Shown in pieces: positions 1 to 31,546 of a stretch of DNA of 49,464 nucleotides. The notes below the pieces were generated by a model. The model had not been told where the DNA came from. It was given only the letters and a program-made list of their open reading frames with translations, and did no database searches. Within the stretch, counting starts at the first letter, position 1. Every line of letters begins with the position of its first letter. The translations under genes were made by a program, and so were the position numbers. Origin of the DNA: Caldifarciminota bacterium (lineage in GTDB: Bacteria; Hydrothermota; Hydrothermia; WGAB01). The DNA lies in NCBI GenBank assembly GCA_015490555.1, contig WFXO01000005.1, forward strand, positions 1 to 49,464, in the 5' to 3' direction.

Positions 1-1158
1 GTCTTGGGCGAACTGGCCATCGGAATCCTCATTGGACCATACGCTCTGGGACGGTTGATCCATCTTCCGGTGATTGGCCCGTTATTTCCCCTCGCAAGCC
101 AACATTCGAACATTCCCATCAGCCCCGAGTTGTACTCCCTCTCCCAAATTGCCGTCATCCTCCTGCTCTTCATTGCCGGTCTTCATACGGATCTTCAGCA
201 GTTTCTCCGATTTGCTCGACAGGCTACGGTCATTGCCCTGGGCGGAGTGATTTTCCCCTTTCTTTTGGGGGATCTTACAACCGTATGGTTTGGCTTTGCA
301 GACCACTTTTTACACCCTACGGCATTGTTTATGGGGGCGGCCCTCACCGCAACTTCGGTAGGGATTACCGCCCGCGTCTTAGCCGATATTAAGAAACTCA
401 ATACTCCCGAGGGCGTGACCATCCTGGCCGGTGCAGTGGTGGACGATGTCCTGGGAATCCTCGTGCTCGCCATCGTGGTCGCGATCGGTGTCCAAGGAAA
501 GGTTTCCTGGGGTTCGATCGGATGGATTTCCCTAAAGGCTGCAGGCTTCTGGATTGTCCTGATGGTGGTCGGGATCCTTTCTGCCGAACGCGTCATGAAG
601 GCCCTCCGTTGGTTCCGGTCGACCGGAGCAACCCTCGCATTGGTGGTTGCCATTGCCTTTTTCTTCTCTGCCCTCGCAGAACTCTTCGGCCTCGCCATGA
701 TCATTGGGGCGTATGCCGTGGGACTCTCTCTGTCTAAAACGGAAGAGGCATCTGAATTGGTTGAACAGTTAGAACCGGTTTATCAAATCTTTGTGCCCAT
801 CTTCTTCGTGGTGATGGGCATGATGGTGGACCTGGGAAGCGTTGTCCACGCCCTGGCCTTTGGCGCAGTCTTAACGATCATGGCCATTTTAGGGAAAGTC
901 CTCGGATGCGGGTTGCCTGCCCTGGGGGTAGGCTTCAATCGATTGGGCTCCCTCAGAATCGGGATCGGGATGTTGCCCCGTGGAGAAGTCGCCTTGATCG
1001 TCGCGGGCGTCGCCATCGCAAAAGGGACCATCCAGAGCGACATGTACGGGGTCGCCGTGATGATGACCATGATTACAACGCTGATGGCCCCCATTTTCCT
1101 GGTCCCGCTCTTCAAAAACCCGGTGAGCGGGCTTCGGCATCCCCCAGATAAGACCTAA
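1..1158 (+). CDS. Na+/H+ antiporter, CPA2/NapA-like family (5' end cut by window)
   Basis: Polytopic inner-membrane protein of the monovalent cation:proton antiporter-2 (CPA2) type, expected to exchange Na+ (or K+) for H+. The reading frame is open to the left edge and starts inside what is normally the first re-entrant segment (VLGELAIGILIGP), so about 20-40 N-terminal residues are missing. About 11 hydrophobic segments are visible. The family signature is the double aspartate in GAVVDDVLG (about residues 147-148 of the visible part); in NapA/NhaA-type proteins this DD pair marks electrogenic exchange. There is no TrkA-N nucleotide-binding domain after the membrane part: the protein ends shortly after the last helix. 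It is followed after 59 nt by the glmL-like gene on the same strand. Family assignment is firm; the exact ion is inferred. Confidence 0.88.
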   Translation, partial: VLGELAIGILIGPYALGRLIHLPVIGPLFPLASQHSNIPISPELYSLSQIAVILLLFIAGLHTDLQQFLRFARQATVIALGGVIFPFLLGDLTTVWFGFADHFLHPTALFMGAALTATSVGITARVLADIKKLNTPEGVTILAGAVVDDVLGILVLAIVVAIGVQGKVSWGSIGWISLKAAGFWIVLMVVGILSAERVMKALRWFRSTGATLALVVAIAFFFSALAELFGLAMIIGAYAVGLSLSKTEEASELVEQLEPVYQIFVPIFFVVMGMMVDLGSVVHALAFGAVLTIMAILGKVLGCGLPALGVGFNRLGSLRIGIGMLPRGEVALIVAGVAIAKGTIQSDMYGVAVMMTMITTLMAPIFLVPLFKNPVSGLRHPPDKT

Positions 1159-1217
1159 GATGGCTGTAAAATATTGCGGTACCAAAAGTTCCTTAAGAAA
1201 CCGCCAGGAGTAGAACC

Positions 1218-3059
1218 ATGGGAGAACACGATCGGAAAACAAAGGTTGAGCGTGTGATTGCCACAGACTGTGGAAGTACGACAACCAAAGCCATCCTCAT
1301 TGAGAAAGTCGAGGATGGATATCGCTTAGTTGCACGCGGTGAGGCTCCGACCACGGTAGAAGCACCTTACGAAGATGTCACTCGAGGGGTTTTGAATGCA
1401 TTTCGAGAAGTAGAAGAGCTCACCGGGCGGAAGATCCTGGATGGTGAGGTCATCGTAAAACCCAAAAAGAACGACCAAGAAGGGGTGGATCTTTACGTCT
1501 CTACGTCATCGGCGGGGGGCGGCCTGCAGATGCTTGTTGCCGGAGTGGTCAAAAGCATGACTGCAGAAAGTGCGGCACGTGCTGCGCTGGGCGCCGGTGC
1601 GATCGTGATGGAGGTCATAGCCTCCAACGACGGCCGAATGCCTCACGAACGGGTGGAATTGATCCGCCGGCTCCGGCCCGATATGATCCTCTTAGCAGGG
1701 GGCGTGGATGGGGGAACAACAAAACATGTCGTCGAACTCGCGGAATTGATCCGTGCGGCAGATCCCAAGCCCCGGTTTGGGACCGGGTACCAGTTGCCGG
1801 TCATCTATGCTGGAAATAAAGACGCCCGCCCCCAAATCCAGGAGATCCTTGGAAAACAAACGGCTTTGGTCATCGTGGATAACATTCGTCCTGTGCTGGA
1901 ACGGGAGAATCTCCAGCCGGCCCGTGAGAAAATCCATGATCTGTTCATGGAACACGTGATGCAGCATGCCCCGGGTTATGCCAAACTGATGTCTTGGACG
2001 GATGTGGCGATCATGCCAACCCCGGGGGCCGTCGGGTCCTTGGTCGAAATTGTCGCGAAACGGGAAGGGATCGAGGTCTTAGGGGTGGACATTGGGGGCG
2101 CAACCACAGACGTCTTCTCTGTTTTCCAGGGCATCTTCAACCGTACCGTGTCCGCCAACCTTGGAATGTCTTACTCGATTTCCAACGTTTTGGTGGAGGC
2201 TGGGTTAGAAAACATCTTACGCTGGGTCCCCTTTGACATTGACCCCTCAGATCTCCGGAACCGCATCCGAAACAAGATGATCCGTCCAACCACAATCCCA
2301 CAGACCTTAGAAGAGTTGATTATCGAGCAGGCGATTGCGCGGGAGGCGCTTCGCTTGGCCTTCGAACATCATAAGGCCATGGCGGTGGGCCTCAAAGGAG
2401 TCCAGACGGAACGGACGATTTCGGATGCCTTTGAGCAGACGCTCACCGGGGCAAGCCTGGTCAACATGATGACGCTCAACTTGATCATCGGCTCCGGTGG
2501 GGCCTTATCTCATGCCCCTCGACGTGCTCAGGCAGCCTTGATGCTTTTAGATGCGTTCCAGCCGGAAGGGGTGACCATGCTGACCGTGGACTCGATCTTT
2601 ATGATGCCCCACCTGGGAGTCTTGGCAGAAGTAGAGCCGGAGATTGCCATGGAGGTCTTCTGGCGGGATTGTTTGATCCGACTGGGTCACGCGGTAGCCC
2701 CCAAAGGGGAAACAAAACCCGGGAAAAACACCCTCCATGTCCGGATGGAACTCCCCAATGGGGAGGTGGTCGAAACCGATTTGCCTTATGGAACGGTGAA
2801 ACGGATCCCCTTAGGAGTCGGGGAAAAGGCGCACGTCATTTTAGAACCTGAACGGGGATTCGATGTAGGTGCCGGGAAAGGGAAACGTTGGGAAGGGGAA
2901 TTGGAGGGTGGGGTGGTCGGAATTATTTTGGATGGCCGGGGCCGCCCCTTAAAATTGCCACAGGACAAAGGGGAACGGATCCAGGCCCTCTCTTCATGGA
3001 TCCGGGCCCTGGAGATCTACCCATGGGAGCCTTATGAACGGCTCCTGAAACGACGATAA
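1218..3059 (+). CDS. GlmL/MutL-family ASKHA ATPase (glutamate mutase accessory-type)
   Basis: 613-residue protein of the GlmL/MutL family (TIGR01319/PF13941 type), named for a gene beside the B12-dependent glutamate mutase subunits in clostridia and thought to act as a reactivating chaperone-like ATPase. Visible ASKHA-fold elements are phosphate-1 DCGSTTTKA (residues 17-25), a second phosphate loop in GVDIGGATTDVFS near residue 290, and an adenosine-type loop IGSGGALSH near residue 425. The ATG is preceded by AGGAG (1206-1210). No mutase S or E subunit, or other B12 enzyme, lies in the window, so the client is unknown. A ctgTAAAAT sequence at about 1166-1174 may be a -10 box, but no -35 is convincing. 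It is not the DNA mismatch repair MutL, which has a different fold. Family confident, function inferred. Confidence 0.88.
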   Translation: MGEHDRKTKVERVIATDCGSTTTKAILIEKVEDGYRLVARGEAPTTVEAPYEDVTRGVLNAFREVEELTGRKILDGEVIVKPKKNDQEGVDLYVSTSSAGGGLQMLVAGVVKSMTAESAARAALGAGAIVMEVIASNDGRMPHERVELIRRLRPDMILLAGGVDGGTTKHVVELAELIRAADPKPRFGTGYQLPVIYAGNKDARPQIQEILGKQTALVIVDNIRPVLERENLQPAREKIHDLFMEHVMQHAPGYAKLMSWTDVAIMPTPGAVGSLVEIVAKREGIEVLGVDIGGATTDVFSVFQGIFNRTVSANLGMSYSISNVLVEAGLENILRWVPFDIDPSDLRNRIRNKMIRPTTIPQTLEELIIEQAIAREALRLAFEHHKAMAVGLKGVQTERTISDAFEQTLTGASLVNMMTLNLIIGSGGALSHAPRRAQAALMLLDAFQPEGVTMLTVDSIFMMPHLGVLAEVEPEIAMEVFWRDCLIRLGHAVAPKGETKPGKNTLHVRMELPNGEVVETDLPYGTVKRIPLGVGEKAHVILEPERGFDVGAGKGKRWEGELEGGVVGIILDGRGRPLKLPQDKGERIQALSSWIRALEIYPWEPYERLLKRR

Positions 3060-3078
3060 GGAGTTATGTGAAGGGTAT

Positions 3079-3137
3079 GCCCCTCTCTGATGGGGGCTGA
3101 ACGGGTAAGGACCTCGGCCGAGGGTCGAGGCCGAGGG
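3079..3137 (+). promoter_or_regulatory. Structured leader of the diguanylate cyclase gene; possible Shine-Dalgarno-masking hairpin
   Basis: The 85-nt gap before the GGDEF gene holds a small hairpin GCCCC/GGGGC (3079-3083 with 3093-3097) and then CCTCGGCC (3112-3119), perfectly complementary to GGCCGAGG (3129-3136) with a 9-nt loop. The second arm overlaps the GAGG that serves as Shine-Dalgarno 8 nt before the ATG at 3145. The first arm can also pair within the 12-nt palindrome 3112-3123, giving two competing folds. GGCCGAGGG occurs twice (3116-3124 and 3129-3137). No GEMM (c-di-GMP riboswitch) core is recognisable. Pairing is seen in the sequence; regulation is inferred. Confidence 0.4.
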
Positions 3138-3144
3138 AAGACTT

Positions 3145-5502
3145 ATGGACTGCAAGCCAATCCAAAATCGTCGGCTGGTTGCCGCCCTCATCGGTGGACT
3201 TTTCCTCCTCCATCTTTTCGTAGTTCAACATTGGCCCGCTTCTCCAGTCGTCCATATGATCTTGATCCTTCCGATTGCCATTGCGGGCGAAATCTTTGGA
3301 CTCTCGGGAGGCCTCGTTGCTGCCCTGTATGCATCTGTCCAGGTCTTCGGAATCGTCCTGATTTTAGGGGCGAAAGCCATCATGGCTCAGTCGCCGACCA
3401 CACTGTTCTTCGTCGTGCTCCTGCTCCTTCTAACGGGGGGACTTTCGGGGATCTTTGGGGAAATTCTTCAGACGAAAATTCGACAATTGGCTCATTCCAC
3501 CACGCGGCAGACTGTCCTGATGGAAGTCATGGGTGCATTGACCCACGCGAAGGATCTCTCAGAACTGTTTGATCAAACCGTTGAGATCCTGCATCAGATC
3601 TGTAAATACCAATACCCCGCTCTCTGGGAATTCGATGAGGAAAGCCAGGAACTCGTGGTCGTCGCCCCTCCGGACATCCAACCTGCACGGATGCAATTGG
3701 GGCAAGGGATCGTTGGGGGAGCCGCACAGAAGCAGGCACCCGTGCTCGTGAACGACCTCGGACCTTCCAATCGAGAACCTCGGTTAGTTGCCAGTGCAAA
3801 AGCATGCGTAGCCTACCCAATCGTACGGGATCACAACATCCTGGGTGTGTTATCGGTTGAGTCTGAGACTCCCAATGTCTTTCAGGAGGAGGATATCCAA
3901 ATCCTGGGGGCGATCGCGGAATTCTTGGGGGTATTAATGGAACGAGAACGCCTTCTCTCGAGACTCGACCAAAAGGGAGAAAACCTGGCGGCTTTCTATG
4001 CAGCAGTCATTCGATTGATGGCAACGCCACGTCACGGGGATGTCATCGAACCCTGTCTTCAAGACGTTGCGACCTTTCCCGATGTCATTGGGGTTCGTTT
4101 GTGGCTGACCGAGGGGCACTATCTCTACGAAGTCGAGAGCCTCAACAAAGCCCCCTGGTCCATGCCTTCACAAATTGGCCCCTTATTAGGGAAAGACCAA
4201 GGGCCTACGTATGTGTATACAGACGATCTATTTATGGATCTGATCCGAACGTCTCATGATCCCATCATTTTGAGCGAAGTCGAACTAAAAACCACCAATG
4301 TTCCATGGGCGTATATCCTGGACCAGGTTCATCAGCATGAGAAGGAGATCCGGAGCCTTGGGTTCTTTCCCTTACAGTCCCCTGAGGGATTCCTGGGCGT
4401 CATGATGGTCGCCTCAAAACGGCCCATCTTTTTGGCCGATCGGATCCACATCCTCACCATTTACACGAGGGCCTTGTCCATCTTGTTGGCCTCACGTTCT
4501 GATGCAAACAAACTGGAATTCTTCGATCACATCGCCCGCCTCGCATTAGAAACGCCCAAGGTGTCCGTTGTTATGGAACATGCGGTGCGTCAACTTGAAG
4601 ACATCCTCCCATTTGACCATGCCCTTCTGATCCGGATTTCAGACCATCGGAATCATCTTGGGGAGGTACTATTTACCACATCCAGGAGAGAGGTAGTGCC
4701 CTTCGTTCAAGTGGGACAGTCGATTTCATTAGAAGATGCGGGGCTCCTTGACGTTGTGCAGGCTCAATCGCCCATGGTGTATGCTGATCTGACGGACCAA
4801 TCCCAAACTCCCCCGTTCCGGGATCTCTATCTCCAGTCCGGAATCCGGAGTCTGGTGTGTGTACCGTTATTCTTTCAGAGCCAAGTCCTGGCAATCCTTA
4901 TCGTCGGCAGGGAACTCCCAGATGCCTTTTCCGATGTTGAGATTGGAAGTTTGGAGGAAATTTCCGACTTTCTGGCTATCATCCTGCACAACATTTGGCT
5001 CCAGGAACGGCTCCAACACGAATCCATCACCGATCCACTCACCGGTTTGCGGAACCGAAAGTATTTGGTCCAACGTGGGAAAGAGGAAATCGCACGCTCT
5101 CAACGCACCGGTGACTCCTTCTCCATCCTCCTCATTGACTTAACGGACTTCAAGAAGATCAACGACACGTATGGCCACCTCTTCGGGGACGAGGTGTTAA
5201 GTGAAGTCGCGCATCGAATCCAAAAAGTGATCCGAAGTGGGGATATCGCAGCGCGGTACGGGGGAGACGAGTTTGTCATCCTCATGCCAAATACGCCCTA
5301 TGAAGCGGCCGGAAGGGCCGCGGAACGATTGATCCAGGTCATTGAAGCACCCATGGAGATTCGTGGGAAGACGATTACTGTCAAGGCGAATATCGGAATC
5401 GCATCGTTCCCTAAGGATGGCCAAGACTTCTATACCCTTGTTGACTTAGCAGACAACCGGATGTATCAAGCCAAGATTCAGGGGGTCCCTCTGATTCTTT
5501 AG
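3145..5502 (+). CDS. Membrane-bound GAF-domain diguanylate cyclase (GGDEF)
   Basis: 785-residue signalling enzyme predicted to make cyclic di-GMP from two GTP. The N-terminal 110 residues hold about four transmembrane helices. Three GAF-like sensory modules follow (about 128-265, 283-450, 460-620); the middle one is the least typical. A complete GGDEF domain occupies about 628-785. The active-site motif is an intact GGDEF (706-710), with the metal/GTP Asp in LLIDLTDFKKIND (about 663-674). RSGD (697-700) lies five residues ahead of GGDEF and matches the RxxD inhibitory I-site, so product feedback inhibition is expected. There is no EAL or HD-GYP domain. The gene follows glmL by 85 nt and converges on the TauE gene with a 20-nt gap. 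The signal sensed cannot be told from sequence. Confidence 0.93.
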   Translation: MDCKPIQNRRLVAALIGGLFLLHLFVVQHWPASPVVHMILILPIAIAGEIFGLSGGLVAALYASVQVFGIVLILGAKAIMAQSPTTLFFVVLLLLLTGGLSGIFGEILQTKIRQLAHSTTRQTVLMEVMGALTHAKDLSELFDQTVEILHQICKYQYPALWEFDEESQELVVVAPPDIQPARMQLGQGIVGGAAQKQAPVLVNDLGPSNREPRLVASAKACVAYPIVRDHNILGVLSVESETPNVFQEEDIQILGAIAEFLGVLMERERLLSRLDQKGENLAAFYAAVIRLMATPRHGDVIEPCLQDVATFPDVIGVRLWLTEGHYLYEVESLNKAPWSMPSQIGPLLGKDQGPTYVYTDDLFMDLIRTSHDPIILSEVELKTTNVPWAYILDQVHQHEKEIRSLGFFPLQSPEGFLGVMMVASKRPIFLADRIHILTIYTRALSILLASRSDANKLEFFDHIARLALETPKVSVVMEHAVRQLEDILPFDHALLIRISDHRNHLGEVLFTTSRREVVPFVQVGQSISLEDAGLLDVVQAQSPMVYADLTDQSQTPPFRDLYLQSGIRSLVCVPLFFQSQVLAILIVGRELPDAFSDVEIGSLEEISDFLAIILHNIWLQERLQHESITDPLTGLRNRKYLVQRGKEEIARSQRTGDSFSILLIDLTDFKKINDTYGHLFGDEVLSEVAHRIQKVIRSGDIAARYGGDEFVILMPNTPYEAAGRAAERLIQVIEAPMEIRGKTITVKANIGIASFPKDGQDFYTLVDLADNRMYQAKIQGVPLIL

Positions 5503-18741: not shown

Positions 18742-20073
18742 TCAGTCTTTTCCTGCAATCTTCATTTGACGAACCATGAACGTCGGTGTCGCGAGACTCC
18801 CTCGAAATTCCAAATCATTGGCCACGCGGTCAATGGTGGCATAGAGTTCTTCCAACCCGAGGGAGATGGTCACTCCCTGCACTGGGTCGCTCAACGCCCC
18901 GTTGGAAATCAATCGGCCATAGGCTCCTGTGGAAAAGTTCCCCGAGACTACATCCAAACCAAAGCCCAAGGTCCCCATCACGTAAAATCCACGGTCTATC
19001 GAGGCAATGATCTCTTCTGGGGTGTCCTCTCCCGGTTGCATGTAGAGATTGGTCAGCCCGATCCCAGGGCGATACCGATAAGAACGGAAGCCATTTCCTG
19101 TCGGTTCTCGTCCTCCTTCCTTGGCACTCCGGAGGTTGTCCACAGGCAGTTTGGGGACCCCTTGATCGACCAGGACTTTCCGTTGGGTGGGAACCCCCTC
19201 ATCATCGACCGGGGTAGACCCTGGCGCGTCTTCCATGGCCGGGTCTTCGATTACAGTCAGCAGGGGAGAAAACAGGGGCTTTCCCAAACGACCCGCAATA
19301 AAGGACCGATTTTTGTTGAGATTCTCGCCCTGTAAGGCCTGGAAGATGGCCCAGAGCAATCGTGTCCCGACAACAGGGGCAAAGACGACGGGCATTTCAT
19401 CGGTGGGAATGGGTTTCCCACCCAAGACGTCCTTTGCTCGCTGGAAGGCCTCCTGGGCTACCCGATCGGCGGGCGGGAGTTGATCCCAAAATCGCCGGCT
19501 CCATCCCGCATAACCCTCCATCTTTTCCCCTTTTTGATCTAATCTTACTTCCGCCCCCAAGGAGAAAGACGTGCTCCACCGCTCCATCTCCATCCCTTTG
19601 GAGGTGACCAGAACGACATGGGCCCGACTCTTTTGAGCCGATCCCTTCTTGAGTCCGATGAGGGAACTTCGGGGATAGGCTTGAACCACAGATTTGGCGT
19701 GATCAACCAAGGCTTCTGGAGTCAACTGTTTGTAGGTCAGATCGACCAGTTTCATCGGGGTGAGGGCTGGGAGAGGTCCTTCGGGCATGACATAGCCGGG
19801 GTCTTCCTCCGCAAATCGAAACAGCGCAATGGCACGTTCTAAGAGTTCCTGAAGGCCCGCGTCCGACAGGTCATTGGAATCCACAAAAGCCGTACGGGTC
19901 CCTTGCTGGATGAGCAATCCCACCCCCTGGGAGCGCCGGAAATCTACGCGGTCGATGTCGTCGTTTTTCCACGAGGCCCGAACGCTTTCACTCCAGACCA
20001 TATAAACTTCCGCCTGAAACTTCTTCTTTTCGGTCCATTTCAGCAGTTTCAGGGCTTGGTCTTTGAGCGTCAT
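18742..20073 (-). CDS. tldE: TldE/PmbA-type subunit of the TldD/TldE protease
   Basis: 443-residue protein of the TldD/PmbA superfamily lacking the HExxxH zinc motif, as expected of the non-catalytic TldE (PmbA) partner. TldD/TldE is a heterodimeric metalloprotease that degrades unfolded peptides and in some bacteria matures peptides such as microcin B17. Conserved C-terminal features are seen in [23 protein letters not shown] at 20073 has TAGGAGGT 6 nt upstream and overlaps the tldD TGA (ATGA). No signal peptide is visible, although its partner TldD has one. Confidence 0.9.
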
Positions 20074-21557
20074 GCGCGACCTCCTACGGTGATTTTCCCG
20101 ATCCTCAACGTCGGTTGCCCCGTCGTTACAGGGACCCACTGCCCCTTGCCACAGGTCCCGGGACCGTAATCCCAATCCGATCCGACCATATCAATGGTTT
20201 TCAGGACTTCAGGGCCGTTGCCAATGAGGGTTGCGCCCCGCACGGGCACCGTGAGTTCCCCGTTCTCGATGAGATATGCTTCACGGACGGTAAAGGTAAA
20301 AGTGCCGCTCGTCGGATCCACCTGGCCACCGGAAAAAGATTTACAGTAGATGCCATACTTGGTGGCGCGAATGATCTCCTCCGGGGGTGTTTCCCCTGCC
20401 AGGATGTAGGTATTACTCATCCGAACCAGGGGAGGATAGCGGTAGGACTCTCGCCGGCCATTGCCGGTCCGGGGAAGTCCCAGTTTTTTGGCGGAACGGA
20501 TGTCCGTCATGTAAGCCACCAGGACCCCTCGCTCGATCAATACGGTCTTCTGCGAAGGGGTGCCTTCGTCGTCGACATTGTACGAGCCACGTGCATGGGG
20601 AAGGGTTGCATCGTCCAACAAGGTCACCAGTTCAGAGCCGACTTTTTGTCCCAGTTTTCCCGTATAAAAGGAGGAGCCTTCTGCGACGGTATCGCCCTCT
20701 AAGCCATGGCCGATCGCTTCGTGGAACAAGACCCCGCCCCAGCCCTTTTCCAAGACCACGGGGAACTCGCCTGCGGGTGCATCCTGTGCATCCAACATCG
20801 TCACAGCCTCACGGGCCGCTTCTCGTGCAACGTCTTCCGGAGAGAACTGATCGAAGAGTTCGAAGCCGCCTTTGATGGACACCCGTTTTCGCCCTAAATG
20901 CCGCCGATCTCCCCGCTGAGCCAGGACCTGGACAGTGAAGTAGATGACGGGCTGTTCATCACCGGTCAGGACCCCCTCAGAGGTCAGGATTTGGAACCGA
21001 CGGAGATCCTCCGAATAGGATACACGGACGTTGAGCACATGGTCATCATAAGCATAGGCTGCCTCTTCTGCACGTCGAACAACCTCCACACGGCGATCTT
21101 CTGGGAGCGTCTCCAGAGGGATTTTCGGGGTGAGAAGCCCTCGGTCGTACGACCGGTATTCAGGGGTTACAGAAATGCGTTGGGGATGGGGTTGTGTGAC
21201 CACCGCACGGGCTGCTTGTGCTGCCTGGAGTCCTGAGCGTACATCCATCTCATCCGCATACGCATACCCGGTACTTTCACCTCGGACGACACGGACCCCG
21301 ATGCCCTGCTCGATCCCCCAGTGTAACTCTTCCATTTTCCGCTGATCCACGGTGATCTGGCGTCGGATCCGGTGTTCCACAAAGACATCGGCAAAATCTC
21401 CGCCATTCCAAAGCGCTTGTTCCAAAATTTTCTTGAGATCCTCTGGATCCATCAGGCCCTCCTTCGGGTTCGTTCCCTCACTTGACCAGAGGGGGATCGG
21501 ACGGAACGCCAAGAGTCCCAATCCAATGAGACTTTGCAAAAACTGACGTCGATCCAT
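20070..21557 (-). CDS. tldD: TldD-type zinc metalloprotease subunit with N-terminal Tat signal
   Basis: 495-residue catalytic partner of the TldD/TldE protease. The zinc motif HEAIGH (about residues 279-284) is intact, and a C-terminal cysteine in GTCGKGQ (about 469) matches the third metal ligand region. The first 26 residues begin MDRRQFLQSLIGLG and continue hydrophobic to about PLWSS, a twin-arginine (Tat) export signal; classic E. coli TldD has none. The start ATG has no Shine-Dalgarno but a good promoter with its -10 box 7 nt upstream. It heads tldD-tldE-yjbQ-acyltransferase-holB and is divergent from proline dehydrogenase. Export is inferred. Confidence 0.92.
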   Translation of the reverse strand: MDRRQFLQSLIGLGLLAFRPIPLWSSEGTNPKEGLMDPEDLKKILEQALWNGGDFADVFVEHRIRRQITVDQRKMEELHWGIEQGIGVRVVRGESTGYAYADEMDVRSGLQAAQAARAVVTQPHPQRISVTPEYRSYDRGLLTPKIPLETLPEDRRVEVVRRAEEAAYAYDDHVLNVRVSYSEDLRRFQILTSEGVLTGDEQPVIYFTVQVLAQRGDRRHLGRKRVSIKGGFELFDQFSPEDVAREAAREAVTMLDAQDAPAGEFPVVLEKGWGGVLFHEAIGHGLEGDTVAEGSSFYTGKLGQKVGSELVTLLDDATLPHARGSYNVDDEGTPSQKTVLIERGVLVAYMTDIRSAKKLGLPRTGNGRRESYRYPPLVRMSNTYILAGETPPEEIIRATKYGIYCKSFSGGQVDPTSGTFTFTVREAYLIENGELTVPVRGATLIGNGPEVLKTIDMVGSDWDYGPGTCGKGQWVPVTTGQPTLRIGKITVGGRA

Positions 21558-21564
21558 GTCGAAA

Positions 21565-21593
21565 GTTATACAGGCCCCTCCCCAGGAGGGCAA
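21565..21593 (-). promoter_or_regulatory. Promoter of the tldD operon, probably leaderless
   Basis: On the minus strand: TTGCCC (21588-21593), 17 nt, TATAAC (21565-21570; 5 of 6 to TATAAT), then 7 nt to the tldD ATG. The short distance leaves no room for a ribosome-binding site. The -10 context CTGTATAA is identical to that of the divergent proline dehydrogenase gene. Confidence 0.65.
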
Positions 21594-22632: not shown

Positions 22633-23244
22633 TCACATTAAGTGGAGCCAATCGGAGAGGAGGAACCCTACCCGCCCAATGAGGAGGGAGACCCGCGCCA
22701 TCACCGTATAGCCAAAGGTTGCCCCGAAGGCGATCATAATGAAGTAAATTCCGATGCGCGCCACCCATCCCATGACCCCCTCTCGTTCCCGGGAAAAGTA
22801 AAAATAGAGCAACGACGTGATCACCCCAAGGATGAGGAGAAAATTGTTGATGGAGTGGAAGGGATGGAGGATGGTTGCCTGGATCTGGGGAAAGAGGAGC
22901 CCCTGGGTGGTGCCGGTGAGGGCCAGCCCCGCACCCAGTCCCACGGCAAAGGCCATGGGGTATCGAGAGTACCAGGCGTATTTGGGGACGATCCGGAAGA
23001 GCATCAAAATCCCCAAAACCAAAGGGATCAAAAGGAGGTCTTTTCCCAAAAGCCCCTGTTTCTGAATGCCCACAAGGAGGTTCGGCGCCACCGTAAAACT
23101 CCAGATGTAGAGAAGCCAGAAGGCGGCGGAAACGCCGACATAAAGGTGTTCTGCGGCTTTGTAAAAGGGGTTATCCCCATACAAAAAACTGAAAATCGCC
23201 AAGGTTAAGAGGGCTGCAAGCCAGATCCCAATTACCGTTGCCAT
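22633..23244 (-). CDS. Unknown six-helix membrane protein (fourth gene of DUF6754 cluster)
   Basis: 203-residue, very hydrophobic protein with about six transmembrane segments (roughly 4-20, 35-55, 70-86, 95-115, 130-147, 160-195 of the chosen frame). I do not recognise a family with known function. Polar landmarks are YGDNPFYKAAEHLYVG after the first helix and HPFHSINNFLL before the fifth. I chose the ATG at 23244, 11 nt after GGAGG; a TTG 9 nt further up is possible. It overlaps the end of the preceding gene by 13 nt, so it is co-translated with the three genes before it. Confidence 0.7.
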   Translation of the reverse strand: MATVIGIWLAALLTLAIFSFLYGDNPFYKAAEHLYVGVSAAFWLLYIWSFTVAPNLLVGIQKQGLLGKDLLLIPLVLGILMLFRIVPKYAWYSRYPMAFAVGLGAGLALTGTTQGLLFPQIQATILHPFHSINNFLLILGVITSLLYFYFSREREGVMGWVARIGIYFIMIAFGATFGYTVMARVSLLIGRVGFLLSDWLHLM

Positions 23245-24026
23245 CGTTCCCAAAACCTCCAGTTGCCATAAAGGATCATGAGGATGATGAGAATGTGGAC
23301 CATGGCCTGTGCGGGCATGCCCCGACTCCCTAAGCCAGGTCGTTGAATCAGAGTTTCGTATTCTGCCGCACCTTTGAGTCCAGCCAGCATTCCAACGAGT
23401 TGCTTCGATTGGATGTATGGATATGTTTCCGGTCCCATGACCGCGGTGACACCGGTAATCAACTTGGCGCCGTATCGGGCCTGGGCAAACTGGATCCAGG
23501 AGCCGTATGTCCCTCCGGAGGCCAGGTCAATGATCAACGCGATATCGTCATAGTTATGGACGTTTTGGAACATCGGCAAAGAATCCAACGGGTTCCCTAA
23601 GGCATCCTCAGGAAAGACATCCCGGATTTCCTGGCCGATTGAGACAATCACTGCTTCCAGGCCAGGCTTGTATCCCAAGTTGGCGTAATCCTCGCCATAG
23701 ACTTTGTTGTGGCGTCGAGCAACCTTTTCCAGGACCTGGACCCCGTTCGGAAGATCCAGCGCACTCTGGAGGGAAAGAATGGCGACTTTTGCCCCCTTTC
23801 GGAACAGGTGCTCAAGGATCGCTTCGTACATCGGGTTCATTTCTGGCATCGTGCTCGGGCCAAAGTCCACGCCGACCAGGACAAGGTCACCGGGTTGCAG
23901 GGCCTCAATCGCTTGATAGGCCATCTCCACGGGAGGTGAGGGTTGGACCCGGGCGGTCCACCGCAGCAAGAGCGGGATGGAAACCGCCAGAAAAACCAAG
24001 GTATAGATGATCCGTCGTGTCCTCAT
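23232..24026 (-). CDS. Unknown envelope protein with helix at each end (third gene of DUF6754 cluster)
   Basis: 264-residue protein with a transmembrane helix near the N-terminus (about 6-24), a soluble domain of about 200 residues and a C-terminal helix (about 240-258). The soluble part alternates strands and helices (for example GDLVLVGVDFGPST, GAKVAILSLQ, LEAVIVSIGQE, IALIIDLASGGTYGS), suggesting a Rossmann-like fold. The segment GAKLITGVTAV followed by KQLVGMLAGL resembles GAIQIAGTTAT and YVLIGEEMLA in the DUF6754-type protein of the same cluster, in the same position relative to the C-terminal helix, so the two may be distant paralogues. ATG at 24026 overlaps the previous stop (ATGA). 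Confidence 0.7.
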   Translation of the reverse strand: MRTRRIIYTLVFLAVSIPLLLRWTARVQPSPPVEMAYQAIEALQPGDLVLVGVDFGPSTMPEMNPMYEAILEHLFRKGAKVAILSLQSALDLPNGVQVLEKVARRHNKVYGEDYANLGYKPGLEAVIVSIGQEIRDVFPEDALGNPLDSLPMFQNVHNYDDIALIIDLASGGTYGSWIQFAQARYGAKLITGVTAVMGPETYPYIQSKQLVGMLAGLKGAAEYETLIQRPGLGSRGMPAQAMVHILIILMILYGNWRFWERWQR

Positions 24027-24634
24027 CGCAAATACGGTCGCTCCAAGCCAAACAGAATCCGAAAGGCCATGCCTACGGCTCCTAAGGCTACACCGATCTG
24101 GATTCCGCGTTGGGCCGCAAGGTTCGGAATCGACATAATCCACTCGGTGATGCCCGCAAAGGCCTGCTCACTTACGGGGATTCGGCCGAGCATCACCAGA
24201 ACCGCTGCCAGCAAGAGCAACAAGGCTTCCATGTTCCGGATTCGAAACGCACGGAAGGCCGCTGAGGCCAGGAAAAAGGCCAGGAGGGAAAACATCGTGG
24301 ACTGCAAAGGGGCAAGGATGTACCCGTACACCCACATCAAGGAGGAATACGGTCCAAAGGGGTCTCCCTGCTGGAAGGACCACACCCCTACGGCCAGTGT
24401 TCCGAAGAATCCCATGAGAAGAATCAAGGAGTACAAGACATTTCGGCCTCGTTGGAGGTTTTTCAAATGGGTCCCGACCAGGTTCAGGAGACCGACCACC
24501 AGGGCAAAGGCGGACACGATCGTATACCACAAGAGTAAGGTCTGCTGGAGGTTTTGGAGAGGGCGGATAAAGAACGCCGCAAGGATCAAAAATCCTGTAA
24601 CGACGGAGAACGCGAAGGGCAACGTCCGCTTCAT
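24023..24634 (-). CDS. Unknown polytopic membrane protein (second gene of DUF6754 cluster)
   Basis: 203-residue protein with about six transmembrane helices (roughly 5-23, 33-53, 64-84, 96-125, 133-150, 170-195). No known family recognised. A short loop with HLKNLQRGRNVLYS after helix 2 is strongly basic and so probably cytoplasmic. The ATG overlaps the TGA of the DUF6754-type gene and its own TGA overlaps the next ATG, which indicates tight translational coupling and probable complex formation. Confidence 0.7.
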   Translation of the reverse strand: MKRTLPFAFSVVTGFLILAAFFIRPLQNLQQTLLLWYTIVSAFALVVGLLNLVGTHLKNLQRGRNVLYSLILLMGFFGTLAVGVWSFQQGDPFGPYSSLMWVYGYILAPLQSTMFSLLAFFLASAAFRAFRIRNMEALLLLLAAVLVMLGRIPVSEQAFAGITEWIMSIPNLAAQRGIQIGVALGAVGMAFRILFGLERPYLR

Positions 24635-25404
24635 CGTGTGTTCAGCAAGGGGGTGATGTCAATTCCAAACATCTTCAACACAATCGCCACGATCAGGAAG
24701 ACCACAATTGCCATCTTTGCCCAGTCCTCAGCGCGGATACTGCCAAGGAGGTTCGGCTCTTTGGAGAGGACCGCGGAGGCCGCCAGCATCTCTTCGCCGA
24801 TCAGGACGTAGTCACAGGCGACCACGAAGAACGGCAACTGTGTAGTCGCCGTCGTGCCCGCAATTTGGATGGCCCCGACGCTTTGGGCCGTTTCGGCCAA
24901 GATCAGACTTTCAGCGTAGAAATAGCCCTGGAGGAAGACTGCGCCGGGTTTCTCCCGCAACATGACCCCATCCACACCTGCGGCATAACCAAACTGGTCT
25001 GAGGTCAGATAGAAAATGGAAGTTTCAGAGTAGAGGTCCGGCCGGCCCGCGCTTTGGTATGCTTCTTTGACAATTTCTTGAGCGGTGGCCATCACGATGG
25101 GGTCGGCGTTCGGCATGACGAACCCCACCTGGTATTCTGCCGCCTTCTGTGCAACGCGACGGAGGATCCCCATTGCGGCTAAAACTGCGATGTTGTTGAG
25201 CCCCAGGATTCCGGTGGTATACAAGACTGGACGACCCATTTCTGCGGCACGGCCGACGGCATCGTCCAGGGCCTCTAAGCCCGGGATCTTCCGAAGGCGG
25301 ATCTCACGACGACGAGCCTCACGAATCCAATAGAGGAACAAACTGGCGAGGGCGACCAACACAACCAGGATCCCCACCTTTGTTGTGTCAATCATAGCGG
25401 CCAA
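24631..25404 (-). CDS. DUF6754-like membrane-anchored protein
   Basis: 257-residue protein with an N-terminal helix (about 10-28), a basic stretch REARRREIRLRKIPGLEALDDA, a soluble core of about 170 residues and a C-terminal helix. The core contains GRPVLYTTGILGLNN, VGFVMPNADPIVMATAQEIV, GYAAGVDGVMLREKPGAVF and DYVLIGEEMLAASA; this resembles the DUF6754 family, whose function is unknown. Two starts compete: TTG at 25404 with a perfect AAGGAGGTG at about 8 nt, which I prefer, or ATG at 25395. It begins 48 nt after lysA and heads four overlapping membrane-protein genes. Confidence 0.72.
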   Translation of the reverse strand: MAAMIDTTKVGILVVLVALASLFLYWIREARRREIRLRKIPGLEALDDAVGRAAEMGRPVLYTTGILGLNNIAVLAAMGILRRVAQKAAEYQVGFVMPNADPIVMATAQEIVKEAYQSAGRPDLYSETSIFYLTSDQFGYAAGVDGVMLREKPGAVFLQGYFYAESLILAETAQSVGAIQIAGTTATTQLPFFVVACDYVLIGEEMLAASAVLSKEPNLLGSIRAEDWAKMAIVVFLIVAIVLKMFGIDITPLLNTR

Positions 25405-25418
25405 TGTATAGCACCTCC

Positions 25419-25431
25419 TTGACAAAGTCAA
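25419..25431. promoter_or_regulatory. Palindrome upstream of the DUF6754-like gene
   Basis: TTGACTTTGTCAA (minus strand) is a perfect 5-bp inverted repeat around TTT in the lysA-DUF6754 gap. Its first half also reads as a -35 hexamer (TTGACT, 25426-25431), with TACATT 17 nt downstream, so it could be an operator overlapping a promoter. The strong Shine-Dalgarno lies inside the would-be spacer, which argues against that promoter. Confidence 0.25.
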
Positions 25432-25452: not shown

Positions 25453-26679
25453 TCATCCTGTTTCCACAGGACCGATGGGAGGGACTTGTTCCCTGGGGTG
25501 GACCAGACGGTGATGTCCTTCTTCGACCACAACTTCTGGTGGACGAGGACGGAGGTTGTAGTTCGAAGCCATCACATAGCCATACGCGCCGGTGTCCAGG
25601 ATGACGAGGAGGTCGCCAGGTTCTAAGCGTTCGAGACGCACGCTTCGTGCAAACATGTCCGTGTTCTCGCAGATGGGGCCGACCACGGCATACTCCAAAA
25701 TCTGCGAATTCCCAGCCTCTTCTGCGCAAACAATCCGGTGAATTTGTTTGTACAGGGCGGGTCGAACAAAATCGTTCATCCCTGCATCCACAATCGCATA
25801 TCGAATCCCTTTCATTTCCTTGACATACAGCACCCGGGTCACCAGGATGCCTGCCTGCGCCAACAGTGTCCGACCCGGCTCTACAATGACCGGAACCGGC
25901 AGGTCTGCCAAAACGGGAGAAAGCGTCTCCCAAAAAGTAGCCTCGTCCCAGGATTGTTGGTAATCCAGAAAGAAGCCACCCCCAATGTCTAAATATTCCG
26001 GGTGGTCCAACGCATCCAAGAGGGGTCGAACCTTCTCAATGGCTTCCAGATAGGGTGCGGCATCCCGGATTTGGGACCCAAGATGGAAGTGAAGTCCAAC
26101 GAAACGTAGTTTTTCACGAAAGCGGCGGTACAAGGGGAGGACCTGGTCAAGGGGAAACCCAAATTTAGAAGATCCAGAGCCTGTCGCAATCTCTTGCAGC
26201 GTGTGAGGAAATACATCGGGATTGACCCGGATTCCCACCCGGGTGCCAGGGTGATGCGCTGCCAGATACTCGAGTTCCCCGGGGTTTTCCACATGAATCG
26301 CAAAAATTCTGGTTGCAGCGGCGAGATCTAATTCCTCAGGCGTCTTGCCCACTCCGGCAAATACAATTTTGTCAGGGGGGATCTTTGCACGAAGAGCCTG
26401 CCGGAGTTCCCCTTGAGAAACTACATCGGCCCCGGCTCCCAAAGACGCCAAGGTTTTGAGGACTGCAAGGTTCGCGTTCGTCTTCACCGAATAAGCAACG
26501 AATTTGACGTTCGGGATCCGTGAAACCCAGTGTTGGTACCGATGTCGGATCCAGGCCAGATCGTAAACATAAAGTGGGGTTCCGTAGGTTTCCGCCAGTT
26601 CGGGGACGGGTACTCCCCCAAAATGGAGTACACCTTCAATCCGTTGAACACCCAACGAAGTCTTTACCGAACCATCCAT
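25453..26679 (-). CDS. lysA: Diaminopimelate decarboxylase
   Basis: 408-residue PLP enzyme converting meso-diaminopimelate to L-lysine, the last step of lysine synthesis. The PLP lysine is Lys66 in VAYSVKTNAN; other family motifs are HFHLGSQI, DIGGGFFLDY, EPGRTLLAQAG, the substrate-binding VGPICENTDMF and GAYGYVMASNYN. The chosen ATG at 26679 overlaps the 3' end of the M23 peptidase gene by 16 nt, with GGAAG 12 nt upstream. It is the only metabolic gene at the end of the surface-protein cluster; a link through peptidoglycan diaminopimelate is possible but unproven. Confidence 0.95.
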   Translation of the reverse strand: MDGSVKTSLGVQRIEGVLHFGGVPVPELAETYGTPLYVYDLAWIRHRYQHWVSRIPNVKFVAYSVKTNANLAVLKTLASLGAGADVVSQGELRQALRAKIPPDKIVFAGVGKTPEELDLAAATRIFAIHVENPGELEYLAAHHPGTRVGIRVNPDVFPHTLQEIATGSGSSKFGFPLDQVLPLYRRFREKLRFVGLHFHLGSQIRDAAPYLEAIEKVRPLLDALDHPEYLDIGGGFFLDYQQSWDEATFWETLSPVLADLPVPVIVEPGRTLLAQAGILVTRVLYVKEMKGIRYAIVDAGMNDFVRPALYKQIHRIVCAEEAGNSQILEYAVVGPICENTDMFARSVRLERLEPGDLLVILDTGAYGYVMASNYNLRPRPPEVVVEEGHHRLVHPREQVPPIGPVETG

Positions 26680-28685
26680 AGTTTTCGGGTCTTCCACTCG
26701 TGTCCGCTTTGCCACCGGAGGAAGTAGATCCCCTCTGGGAACTTGGGGAGAACCTGTTTTTTGCTCAGTCGCATGGTGTAAACACGGCGTCCAGCAATGT
26801 CAAAGATCTGGAGGTCCAGCACCTTCCCTTGAAGAGGCTGGAGTTGAATCCTCCCGTATGGGAGATACAACACGCGAAGGTCAGGGCTCGGCCCCTCGTT
26901 TAACGGCCTTTGCTCCTCAACATTTACCTGGGCCCATTCTGCGAGGATCCGGAGAAAGGTCTCTCGAGCCGAATCCGGATAGAGGGCCTCCCACGGGAAT
27001 CCGAGTACCAAGGTAGAGGGGGTTTGAACCCCCGCAATTCCAAGCCCAGGGAACTCCAGGACCGGTTGGGCGTCGTTTTGCGTCACCGTGAGAACACTGA
27101 TGGTATCCACAGGATAGGCGCCGTGCGTCCCTGCATCGAGCCACGCACTCCACCCTTCAAAGAGAGTTCCTGAAAGCCCCTGGACAGGGATAGGAGGGGT
27201 ACCTACGGCTTTAGTCCCAACACCTCCAATCAAGGTATCCATGCGTACCGAGTCTTGAGGGTTTTCACTCAACGTCGCGGCAATCGAAGAACCGGAGAGC
27301 ACGACCTTATGACCCCGGGATAGGATCTGGTATACCGCGGCCCATTCAGTCTCCTGAAAGCCTGTTCCAGATCGTCCCCAGGATAGAAGGAGCCAATCCG
27401 CAGTGGAATCATGGGGGACCCCTGCGGCGTCCGTCAAAATGTTCCCGGAAGAAACACCTTCTAAAAGTCGCCAGTAAAGGGTGGCTTCAGAGGAAAAGGA
27501 CGTGCCGTCTACCAGTAGGAGATTCGTGGAGTAGCCGCGGCGGATCACAAAAGCATTAGACGTGTCGGTTTGATTCGGGGGGATGGCCCAGTCCTCCGCC
27601 AGAATCCGGAAGGCAAAGTTCCAGCCCGGAGGCATCGGATATTGGGTGACATATAGGGAGTCTTCGGGCCCGAGGGTCGCCCATAGAGTCCAAGGTGCAT
27701 CGTTGAATCTCAGAAAAACCTTATAACGCGCGATATCGGGGGCCTGCGAACGCCGCCACTCAAACTGGGCCCGGCCATCGGGCAAGGGTAGAAGTCGGAG
27801 GGGGAACGGCGGATCCGGAGGTTCAACATCTGGAGGCTCTGCGTGAATCGAAAGACTCACCGTATCCGCATTTCCCTCAGTGTCAAATGCAAAAATGACC
27901 AGGGTATAATCCCCTTCCCCCAAGAGTTGGAAATTCAAGGCATCGTTGGTCTCCAGTTGGTTCGTGACAATGTAACAATGGCTTCCGTTCGTGGACCATG
28001 GCGCATAGACGTTCAGGGTATAGGTGTTGTCAGGTTTCGTATCGAACTGGAAACGAATGTGGGGGGCAATGACCTCCGAATCCCCTTGGTACAAAGCAAA
28101 CCCGATTTGATAAACGCCGTTGTTGGTCCCCCAGGGGCTGTAGTCGGTGGTATCCATTGCCAAGGCCACGACGTCCACCAATCCCGAGAGATGTTGTGGA
28201 TCTATTGGGGATCCCAGGCCGTCCGTATAGAAAGAAACCTGATAAATCTGGGGTGGATAGGGATCGCTAAAAGGTTCCAGGCCAGGGGGGATCAAAGGAT
28301 TCCGGTTGACATATCCCGATGCGCCTCCCCCATCCTTAAAGTGGACATGATTCAAGGGATTGATATAGCCGACGAGTTCTCCTTCCTGGACGTAATCACC
28401 GATTTCCAGGTCGGCTCGAGGGACAACATGGACATAGGCAAACCGGCCGACCCGAATCCCACCGTTGCTCCCGGATCCCAGCCAGAGAACCGATCCTGAA
28501 GCCACCGCATACACTGGGGTCCCCTCCGCAGCGGGGATATCCACGCCGGAGTGGAAGTGAGGGGGAGGGCCTTCTCGAAACTCACAGAAGGTTCCGGAGA
28601 CGTCATGTTGTTGGGTCATCGGGACCAACGGCCAGGGATAGGAGAAGACGTAAAGGACTATGGCAGTCGTAAGACTCGCGAACAT
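26664..28685 (-). CDS. Secreted M23 metallopeptidase-like protein with T9SS-type C-terminal sorting domain
   Basis: 673-residue modular surface protein. The N-terminal ~25 residues look like a signal peptide. A LytM/M23 peptidase domain follows (about 30-120) with the zinc ligands intact: HSGVD (45-49), YVH (84-86) and HVH (113-115). M23 enzymes cut peptidoglycan cross-bridges or peptides. After a beta-rich region (about 145-290) comes a fibronectin-III-like domain (about 298-385), then an alpha/beta domain of about 210 residues starting TNLLLVDGT that resembles the Rossmann-like domains of FCB secreted proteins, and finally a sorting-like domain (last ~80) with LDLQIFDIAGRRVYTM and EGIYFLRWQ. 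It overlaps the genes on both sides. Confidence 0.85.
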   Translation of the reverse strand: MFASLTTAIVLYVFSYPWPLVPMTQQHDVSGTFCEFREGPPPHFHSGVDIPAAEGTPVYAVASGSVLWLGSGSNGGIRVGRFAYVHVVPRADLEIGDYVQEGELVGYINPLNHVHFKDGGGASGYVNRNPLIPPGLEPFSDPYPPQIYQVSFYTDGLGSPIDPQHLSGLVDVVALAMDTTDYSPWGTNNGVYQIGFALYQGDSEVIAPHIRFQFDTKPDNTYTLNVYAPWSTNGSHCYIVTNQLETNDALNFQLLGEGDYTLVIFAFDTEGNADTVSLSIHAEPPDVEPPDPPFPLRLLPLPDGRAQFEWRRSQAPDIARYKVFLRFNDAPWTLWATLGPEDSLYVTQYPMPPGWNFAFRILAEDWAIPPNQTDTSNAFVIRRGYSTNLLLVDGTSFSSEATLYWRLLEGVSSGNILTDAAGVPHDSTADWLLLSWGRSGTGFQETEWAAVYQILSRGHKVVLSGSSIAATLSENPQDSVRMDTLIGGVGTKAVGTPPIPVQGLSGTLFEGWSAWLDAGTHGAYPVDTISVLTVTQNDAQPVLEFPGLGIAGVQTPSTLVLGFPWEALYPDSARETFLRILAEWAQVNVEEQRPLNEGPSPDLRVLYLPYGRIQLQPLQGKVLDLQIFDIAGRRVYTMRLSKKQVLPKFPEGIYFLRWQSGHEWKTRKLWMVR

Positions 28686-29802: not shown

Positions 29803-31506
29803 TCAGTGGCTGATCAGTGTCCGTGTGGTGACCGTCCCTTCCGGCGTTTTCACTTTGATGAAGTACACCCCGTTCTGGAGGGATGCGGTATTCCACTGGA
29901 GACTATGGTTGCCCTGGTTCAACTGACCGCGGTAGAGTTCTGCGACCCGGCGACCCGCAATGTCATAGACCTCCACCGAGACTTCACCTTTCCGGAGCAT
30001 GGTGAAGCGGATGGTGGCTTGATTGTTGGCCGGCACCGGGAAGACCTTGAGATCCACTGGATTCAGATAGTGGACTTCCCATTCCTGGACACCGGTGACA
30101 TCATGTTCAAGCATGCAGAAGAACCCACTATCCAAGGGGTAGAACGGATAATCCGAACTGCTGCGAACTTCCCATGAGTTGAAGAAGATTTCCTTTTGAC
30201 CGTCGCCATCCAGGTCATTCCCCAGGGCCACCACCACACCAGGTATGAGGCTATAATACACCCAGACGGAATCAAACCAGGTGCTATCGGACCAGAAGTC
30301 ACTGTACAGGTCGTACATGGTATAGGAATTCGGATCGCTCAAATCCGTCCCGGTGAACTCCAGATCCCAGACGTGGCCGTAGTCATCCGTGAAGTAAATA
30401 TCCGGCGCATCGGAGCCAGGGCCGTGATCTTGATCACCGGCGCGGAGACCCAAAATCGAGAACATCGGCGTTGAATCGTTGACCATGAACTCGACGGTAT
30501 ACGTTGTAAGATCGGATGTATTTACATCGGCGCCTGCCTTCACAAAGTGAATCCGGCTCCGGAGGAGGGACCCAATGATCAACTCCGGTTTCCCATCACC
30601 ATCCATGTCGTAGGCATCCACAATCTTCGCAAACGGATACCGGTCTTCCGTATCGATATTATCGAGATAGCCTTTGACTTCATAGGTATTTGGACCTGTG
30701 GCTTCGATGATCTGAAGGCCAATGTTGTTCCAAACCATGACGATGAGGTCCGTATTCCCATCGTTATCGAGATCTGTCACGAAACCGGAGACAGAACTTC
30801 CTCCCCAACCCAAGTCGCTTCGCTTGGCAATAAACTCTTGGTTCACCACGTAGAACCCGGGGAGATCCCCCACGATCGAGAAGATATAAGCGTTATCGAA
30901 GGCCGTACTGGCGTTATTCACCCACATCACTTCCTGGACGCCGTCGTTGTCGAAGTCACCCGCGACGAGGTCTTCACACCGATACCGGTCGGGGACCACC
31001 GCACCACCCTGTTCCCATGCAAACTCCGTGATCTGAGCAACGAGTTGGTAGTCGTTATCGTTGCCGGTCCATTCGAAAACCCAAAGACCCACATGCTGGC
31101 GAGAAGTATCGCCTCCCGCACCGGTCATGGCGACAAGGATTTCTCCCTTTCCATCGCCGTCAATATCCCCGGTCGTCACGCTTCGAGCCGTGGATGTATA
31201 TCCAGTCGGGCCTGGACCACTGAATGTCCAAACCTCTTGAAGATTATTGTCGCCTACCACCTCGAAAACGTGTACGCGGCCACCGTTCTTGTAGTCCGTG
31301 ATGATGACCTCTGGGTTCCCATCCTGATCCAAATCCGTGCCCACGACGGTAGAACGGATGTACTGATAGTACGACGAATCGGCGTAGACGGAGTCATTAG
31401 GGTTATCGCACCAGGCGATTCCAAAGGTACTATTGTCTCCGTCGTCGGCCAGGCCGACACCGACCCATAGCCCAACGAGGAGGGCCATCCACATACGCTT
31501 CTTCAT
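29803..31506 (-). CDS. Secreted FG-GAP/VCBS seven-bladed propeller protein with T9SS-type C-terminal sorting domain
   Basis: 567-residue exported protein. A signal peptide (about 1-20, ending GVGLA) is followed by an integrin-like beta-propeller. Six calcium loops of the form DxDxDGxxE/D are visible: DLDQDGNPE, DIDGDGKGE, DFDNDGVQE, DLDNDGNTD, DMDGDGKPE, DLDGDGQKE; a degenerate one (GDQDHGPGSDAPD) lies between the last two, making seven blades. The last ~80 residues form a type-A sorting-like domain with VSVEVYDIAGRRVAEL and NGVYFIKV, as in proteins exported by the Por/type 9 system. Three start codons stand in a row (GTG ATG ATG); the second ATG has the best 7-nt spacing from AGGAGG. It lies 40 nt after the PorV-like gene. 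Confidence 0.88.
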   Translation of the reverse strand: MKKRMWMALLVGLWVGVGLADDGDNSTFGIAWCDNPNDSVYADSSYYQYIRSTVVGTDLDQDGNPEVIITDYKNGGRVHVFEVVGDNNLQEVWTFSGPGPTGYTSTARSVTTGDIDGDGKGEILVAMTGAGGDTSRQHVGLWVFEWTGNDNDYQLVAQITEFAWEQGGAVVPDRYRCEDLVAGDFDNDGVQEVMWVNNASTAFDNAYIFSIVGDLPGFYVVNQEFIAKRSDLGWGGSSVSGFVTDLDNDGNTDLIVMVWNNIGLQIIEATGPNTYEVKGYLDNIDTEDRYPFAKIVDAYDMDGDGKPELIIGSLLRSRIHFVKAGADVNTSDLTTYTVEFMVNDSTPMFSILGLRAGDQDHGPGSDAPDIYFTDDYGHVWDLEFTGTDLSDPNSYTMYDLYSDFWSDSTWFDSVWVYYSLIPGVVVALGNDLDGDGQKEIFFNSWEVRSSSDYPFYPLDSGFFCMLEHDVTGVQEWEVHYLNPVDLKVFPVPANNQATIRFTMLRKGEVSVEVYDIAGRRVAELYRGQLNQGNHSLQWNTASLQNGVYFIKVKTPEGTVTTRTLISH

Positions 31507-31546
31507 CATCACACCTCCTTTTGTTTATCTAAGCACCCCAGCAGTC

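Follow-up and report, generated by a model that had tools for sequence, protein, structure and literature searches.

We infer that four overlapping genes, here called A, B, C and D, encode the subunits of a single inner-membrane complex, and no searched library or paper describes the ABCD system, with B and D compared at the sequence level. The genes lie on the minus strand of the window, that is, the whole 49,464-nucleotide stretch of DNA that was analysed (Table 1). The original prediction had described four overlapping genes with two ATGA overlaps and one of 13 nt, and all of these open reading frames were found in place. A and B share 4 nt (ATGA at 24634-24631), B and C share 4 nt (ATGA at 24026-24023), and C and D overlap by 13 nt given a D start at ATG 23244. 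Gene A probably starts at TTG 25404 rather than at ATG 25395 because an AGGAGG motif lies nine bases upstream of the former, a choice that is also consistent with the end coordinate of the original prediction. A gene for a diaminopimelate/ornithine-type decarboxylase lies upstream of A on the same strand, 48 bases away, and a proline dehydrogenase gene is convergent with D on its other side. An Rfam search of the window for RNA elements gave no match, and a terminator looked for near the four genes was not found.

Table 1. Positions of the four-gene module, its putative ribosome-binding site and the MutL-family gene within the window
Feature	Position	Strand	Basis
Gene A, DUF6754 protein, short form without fibronectin-like domain	24631..25404	-	PF20539 E 4.6e-101; AlphaFold2 pLDDT 93.3
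Gene A plan: N-out TM helix, cytoplasmic alpha/beta domain, TM helix (predicted)	24631..25404	-	
Gene B, six-helix membrane protein, N-in (predicted)	24023..24634	-	invariant P6, S124, R128, R176
Gene C: TM helix, extracytoplasmic alpha/beta domain, TM helix (predicted)	23232..24026	-	AlphaFold2 pLDDT 97.2; terminal charges
Gene D, six-helix membrane protein, N-out (predicted)	22633..23244	-	invariant Y22, D24, N25, Y28, E32, R94
AGGAGG, ribosome-binding-site-like	25414..25419	-	nine bases before TTG 25404; direct sequence reading
MutL-family ATPase (ASKHA type), full-length, with C-terminal extension	1218..3059	+	PF13941 E 1e-131

The evidence for a common complex comes foremost from the way in which the four genes travel together. 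Scanning 84,980 species genomes with A returned 265 relatives, of which the best 80 were taken for locus reading, and these 80 also supplied the profiles of the four proteins that were searched against all open reading frames. Across the 80 genome loci and this genome, 87 of 113 A-containing modules are complete, and all 87 have the order A-B-C-D on one strand. Complete modules occur in Fermentibacteria, Cloacimonadota, Zixibacteria, Eisenbacteria, WOR-3 and others, so the neighbour conservation that the original prediction proposed as a check is extensive. That 87 modules over many phyla should combine these four families in one and the same order goes far beyond chance. Incomplete modules are mostly cut by contig ends or fall below our strict coverage rule. 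The original prediction had also held that each gene standing alone in relatives would count against an assembly, and here we found only a few orphan copies of A, with three real exceptions in which A occurs without B, C and D (L064, L075 and the third copy in L083).

The modules also appear to be copied as wholes. Two or three lie in tandem in many loci, the four genes have correlated distance matrices (r 0.74-0.90), and in 80 of the 87 modules the sets of five nearest modules share at least one member in all four genes. The conserved order, the correlated distances and the shared nearest modules together indicate that the four genes were inherited and duplicated together. A tree of the concatenated genes separates two main module types spread across many phyla, with the deepest split weakly supported on one side, and tandem neighbours are often of different type. 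Two loci group in unexpected places in this tree, one assigned to ANME-2 (L029) inside the Fermentibacteria modules and one assigned to Armatimonadetes (L049) inside those of Cloacimonadota, and were therefore treated as probable misbinned contigs.

Within the phylum of the window the module is nearly universal. A was found in 140 and C in 143 of 147 genomes; among the 93 good genomes the counts are 90 and 89, respectively. A single genome carries up to seven copies of A, and the genome studied here has three modules, one in the window (contig C5) and the others on contigs C8 and C87, while none of 14 well-known control genomes contains A. Being so widespread in the phylum, with as many as seven copies per genome, and occurring in several neighbouring phyla as well, ABCD probably has a central role, and three of its four proteins are without a family name while the fourth belongs to a domain of unknown function.

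That fourth protein is A, which the original prediction called DUF6754-like and which is a clear member of that family (PF20539), scoring 337.7 bits against a cut-off of 27 and covering nearly the full model (profile positions 6-251 of 257). The family is defined as a single domain of unknown function, and its model includes neither the partners B, C and D nor the fibronectin-like domain described below. B, C and D have no significant Pfam or NCBIfam family, and scanning 59 C members and 40 D members singly gave no significant family match (for the 40 D members, no Pfam family). The best family matches were below threshold, namely Gpr1_Fun34_YaaH for B (E 0.029) and DUF2231 for D (E 0.011), the latter not repeated across the 40 D members. 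A known transporter family, secondary transporters included, for the six-helix subunits, a clear match to which the original prediction had named as a finding against it, was rejected on the grounds that Pfam and NCBIfam give only these sub-threshold matches. In addition, searches of A-D taken as far as E 1 gave no ATPase subunit or domain that would indicate an ABC transporter or another ATP-driven type, Pfam and NCBIfam show no Rnf/Nqr membrane subunit among them, and there is no Band_7 domain of the kind found in SPFH scaffolds. Profile searches of PDB sequences with A, C and D yielded nothing meaningful, and a literature search found no paper naming DUF6754 and no helpful account of GlmL/MutL or of membrane complexes in WOR-3.

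Confident structure models, built with AlphaFold2 from alignments, show in both A and C a six-stranded alpha/beta domain between two TM helices, and hydrophobic segments number six in B and six in D, as expected for the two six-helix proteins of the original prediction. These alpha/beta domains weakly match RCK, SIS and other Rossmann-like structures. They differ from them in that Foldseek against the PDB found no match to A below E 0.001 and two generic best matches only for C, with no fold match of either exceeding a TM-score of about 0.37 on the query. Since B, C and D lack a family assignment, sequences in the PDB offer no match to A, C or D, and neither A nor C has a convincing counterpart in fold, the original view that no known system matches stands. 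Its proposal that two of the proteins share one plan is upheld by the helix-alpha/beta-helix arrangement of the A and C models, but the matching topologies it claimed are not supported, given the predicted placement of the two domains on opposite sides of the membrane. Moreover, no A/C homology was detected by profile comparison, even with secondary structure added, and the same comparison detected none between B and D. The helix-strand order common to A and C may reflect shared ancestry or convergence.

The predicted orientations rest on signals in the protein sequences. Most relatives of A start with a signal peptide, followed by a fibronectin-like domain (weak fn3 matches in L017 and L015) and then a TM helix with a strongly basic stretch behind it, and because of this arrangement the DUF6754 domain is predicted to be cytoplasmic. 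The fibronectin-like part is absent from the A of the window, from L013 and L014, and from the third copies in Zixibacteria, and is therefore accessory. A further variant, at positions 567-4049 of a Mcinerneyibacteriota locus (L056), is a 1160 aa protein in which about 900 residues of unknown sequence precede DUF6754. C begins with MRTRR and ends in basic residues after its last helix, on account of which its alpha/beta domain is predicted to be extracytoplasmic. Charges likewise predict B to be N-in and D to be N-out.

The module may not be complete at four genes, as a MutL-family protein and a second protein, n0, are recurrent partners. In WOR-3, Fermentibacteria, Latescibacterota, Eisenbacteria and related loci, MutL followed by n0 immediately precedes A, a position that n0 also takes in Zixibacteria. 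The pair is often preceded by gcvP and a small gene, n4, and in some loci the modules are followed by a gene for a lipoate-protein ligase, named from its sequence rather than by family search. n4 is conserved and has no family match (for example L024 1726-2130). n0, about 375 residues long, is conserved and contains barrel-sandwich-like repeats (for example L093 1435-2622 and L044 6256-7395). It matches no family above cut-off and weakly resembles RnfC_N (E 0.0035) and Biotin_lipoyl (E 0.00087) below it, differing from RnfC/NqrA and biotin-lipoyl proteins in extending into further regions without family match, and A-D match no Rnf/Nqr subunit. Away from the modules, paralogues of MutL and n0 again occur as a pair or as one fused open reading frame. 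Such fusions of a MutL domain to an n0 domain are seen at L095 5686-8562 (958 aa) and L096 7056-9857 (933 aa).

Members of the MutL/GlmL family (PF13941) are accessory ATPases of B12 mutases. The upstream neighbour of the module is a full-length member of this family but is longer (about 600 aa, compared with 450) and falls far under the NCBIfam GlmL equivalog cut-off (226 versus 475). A MutL-family ATPase encoded beside a B12-dependent mutase would point to a GlmL-type reactivase system; in the loci read, the neighbours of MutL are n0, n4, gcvP and A-D, and its partner there is n0 rather than a mutase. In the present genome, MutL is a single-copy gene about 20 kb from the four-gene module and n0 is on contig C26, neither of them next to any module.

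A shared absence involves most of these genes. One genus (g67), represented by two genomes (G126 and G127) that are 94-95% complete, is without A, C, D, n0 and MutL, all of which other members of its family possess. This joint absence is one genus and one evolutionary event, and we weigh it as such. A partial counter-example is G013, a fragmented genome that is 90% complete, in which MutL and n0 were found and A, C and D were not. Together, the gene order, the duplication of the module as a unit and the fact that g67 is missing A, C and D at once strongly support the stable inner-membrane assembly put forward in the original prediction.

What the assembly does is less certain. It is possible, though short of probable, that ABCD is a transporter-like inner-membrane machine or gated conduit with MutL and n0 as cytoplasmic helpers, transport and the part given to MutL and n0 both being guesses. 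In such a machine, the membrane core would consist of B and D, with 12 helices per ABCD set, plus two helices each from A and C. The alpha/beta domain of A would face the cytoplasm and that of C the outside, where the A of most relatives would add its fibronectin-like domain. The cytoplasmic A domain may sense or bind something, and the B/D core would couple it to the C domain on the outside. Invariant polar residues in or next to membrane helices (H244 and N255 of C, both inside the TM helix after the domain; D24, E32 and R94 of D; R128 and R176 of B) could line the path, while two further invariant residues of C, D141 and E224, are in its alpha/beta domain. From the cytoplasmic side, MutL and n0 would serve all copies, using ATP to assemble or energise them. 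Against this reading, the module itself contains no substrate-binding, transporter family or ATPase domain, the joint absence that ties in MutL and n0 is confined to a single genus, MutL and n0 are not beside the modules of this genome, and in G013 they were found and A, C and D were not. A broader version, in which ABCD forms a new class of energy-coupled machine with a B/D core, opposed A and C domains and MutL plus n0 to drive or load it, as a core feature of a whole branch of the FCB-related phyla, is doubtful. If the link to MutL and n0 is real, MutL-type ATPases would gain a role outside B12-dependent mutases.

The distribution of conservation bears on the transporter-like reading and on its main rival alike. 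In A, conservation is spread over the whole domain and is not concentrated after strands (p 0.88), on which basis an active-site crest in A was rejected; in C, a mild concentration after strands was observed (p 0.02). The pattern in A counts against a transporter-like machine and would suit a packed assembly no less than a ligand site. Since this conservation extends beyond any ligand crest, the main rival is a membrane scaffold or envelope-organising assembly, in which repeated alpha/beta units of A and C would be packed on either face of the membrane, with B and D as anchors. The very high conservation of A, with 58-63% mean identity between phyla, is typical of tightly packed repeated assemblies, and the many copies per genome and the outer fibronectin-like domain agree with such a role. 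SPFH (Band 7) proteins are membrane-anchored and thought to assemble and organise membranes, and an SPFH gene lies between two modules in L090. However, SPFH neighbours occur in few loci only, A-D differ from these proteins in architecture and have no sequence match to them, and a scaffold does not readily explain polar invariants inside membrane helices. We know of no scaffold with an ABCD-like subunit set, and we regard this explanation as rather unlikely.

The recurrent neighbours raise the further prospect of a membrane-bound enzyme or redox complex linked to glycine cleavage and lipoyl proteins, which we judge improbable. L102 and similar loci have the order gcvP, n4, MutL, n0, one or two ABCD modules and lipoate-protein ligase; the weak lipoyl and RnfC_N matches of n0 point the same way, as does the genus without the module, where GDC-P is absent from G127 and has one match in G126 where most genomes have two. 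Yet no cofactor, haem or iron-sulphur motif was seen in A-D, other modules adjoin unrelated genes (a subtilase, a CbiQ-type transporter, a TonB receptor and Wzi), and gcvP in this genome is on a different contig from the window.

An inner-membrane part of a type IX or other outer-membrane export route is very unlikely. Genes near modules, in this window too, do encode subtilases, outer-membrane proteins and secreted proteins that carry sorting domains, but the two genomes of g67 without A, C and D keep Omp85 proteins and 65 (G126) and 50 (G127) type IX sorting-domain matches. The module is therefore not required for these, and a role in type IX secretion or outer-membrane biogenesis is largely refuted by this profile. 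That the four membrane proteins act separately and merely share an operon is similarly remote, as the three loci with A alone are set against the constant gene order of the 87 complete modules from many phyla, the duplication of all four genes together and the joint absence described above.

Other genes of the window were also noted. Two minus-strand genes encode secreted proteins with type IX-like C-terminal sorting domains, at 26664-28685, where the product is also an M23 peptidase, and at 29803-31512; this genome has about 43 such sorting domains. A TldD/PmbA metallopeptidase pair is encoded at 18742-21593 on the minus strand, and genes of the same sequence cluster lie upstream of n4-MutL-n0-ABCD in L044.
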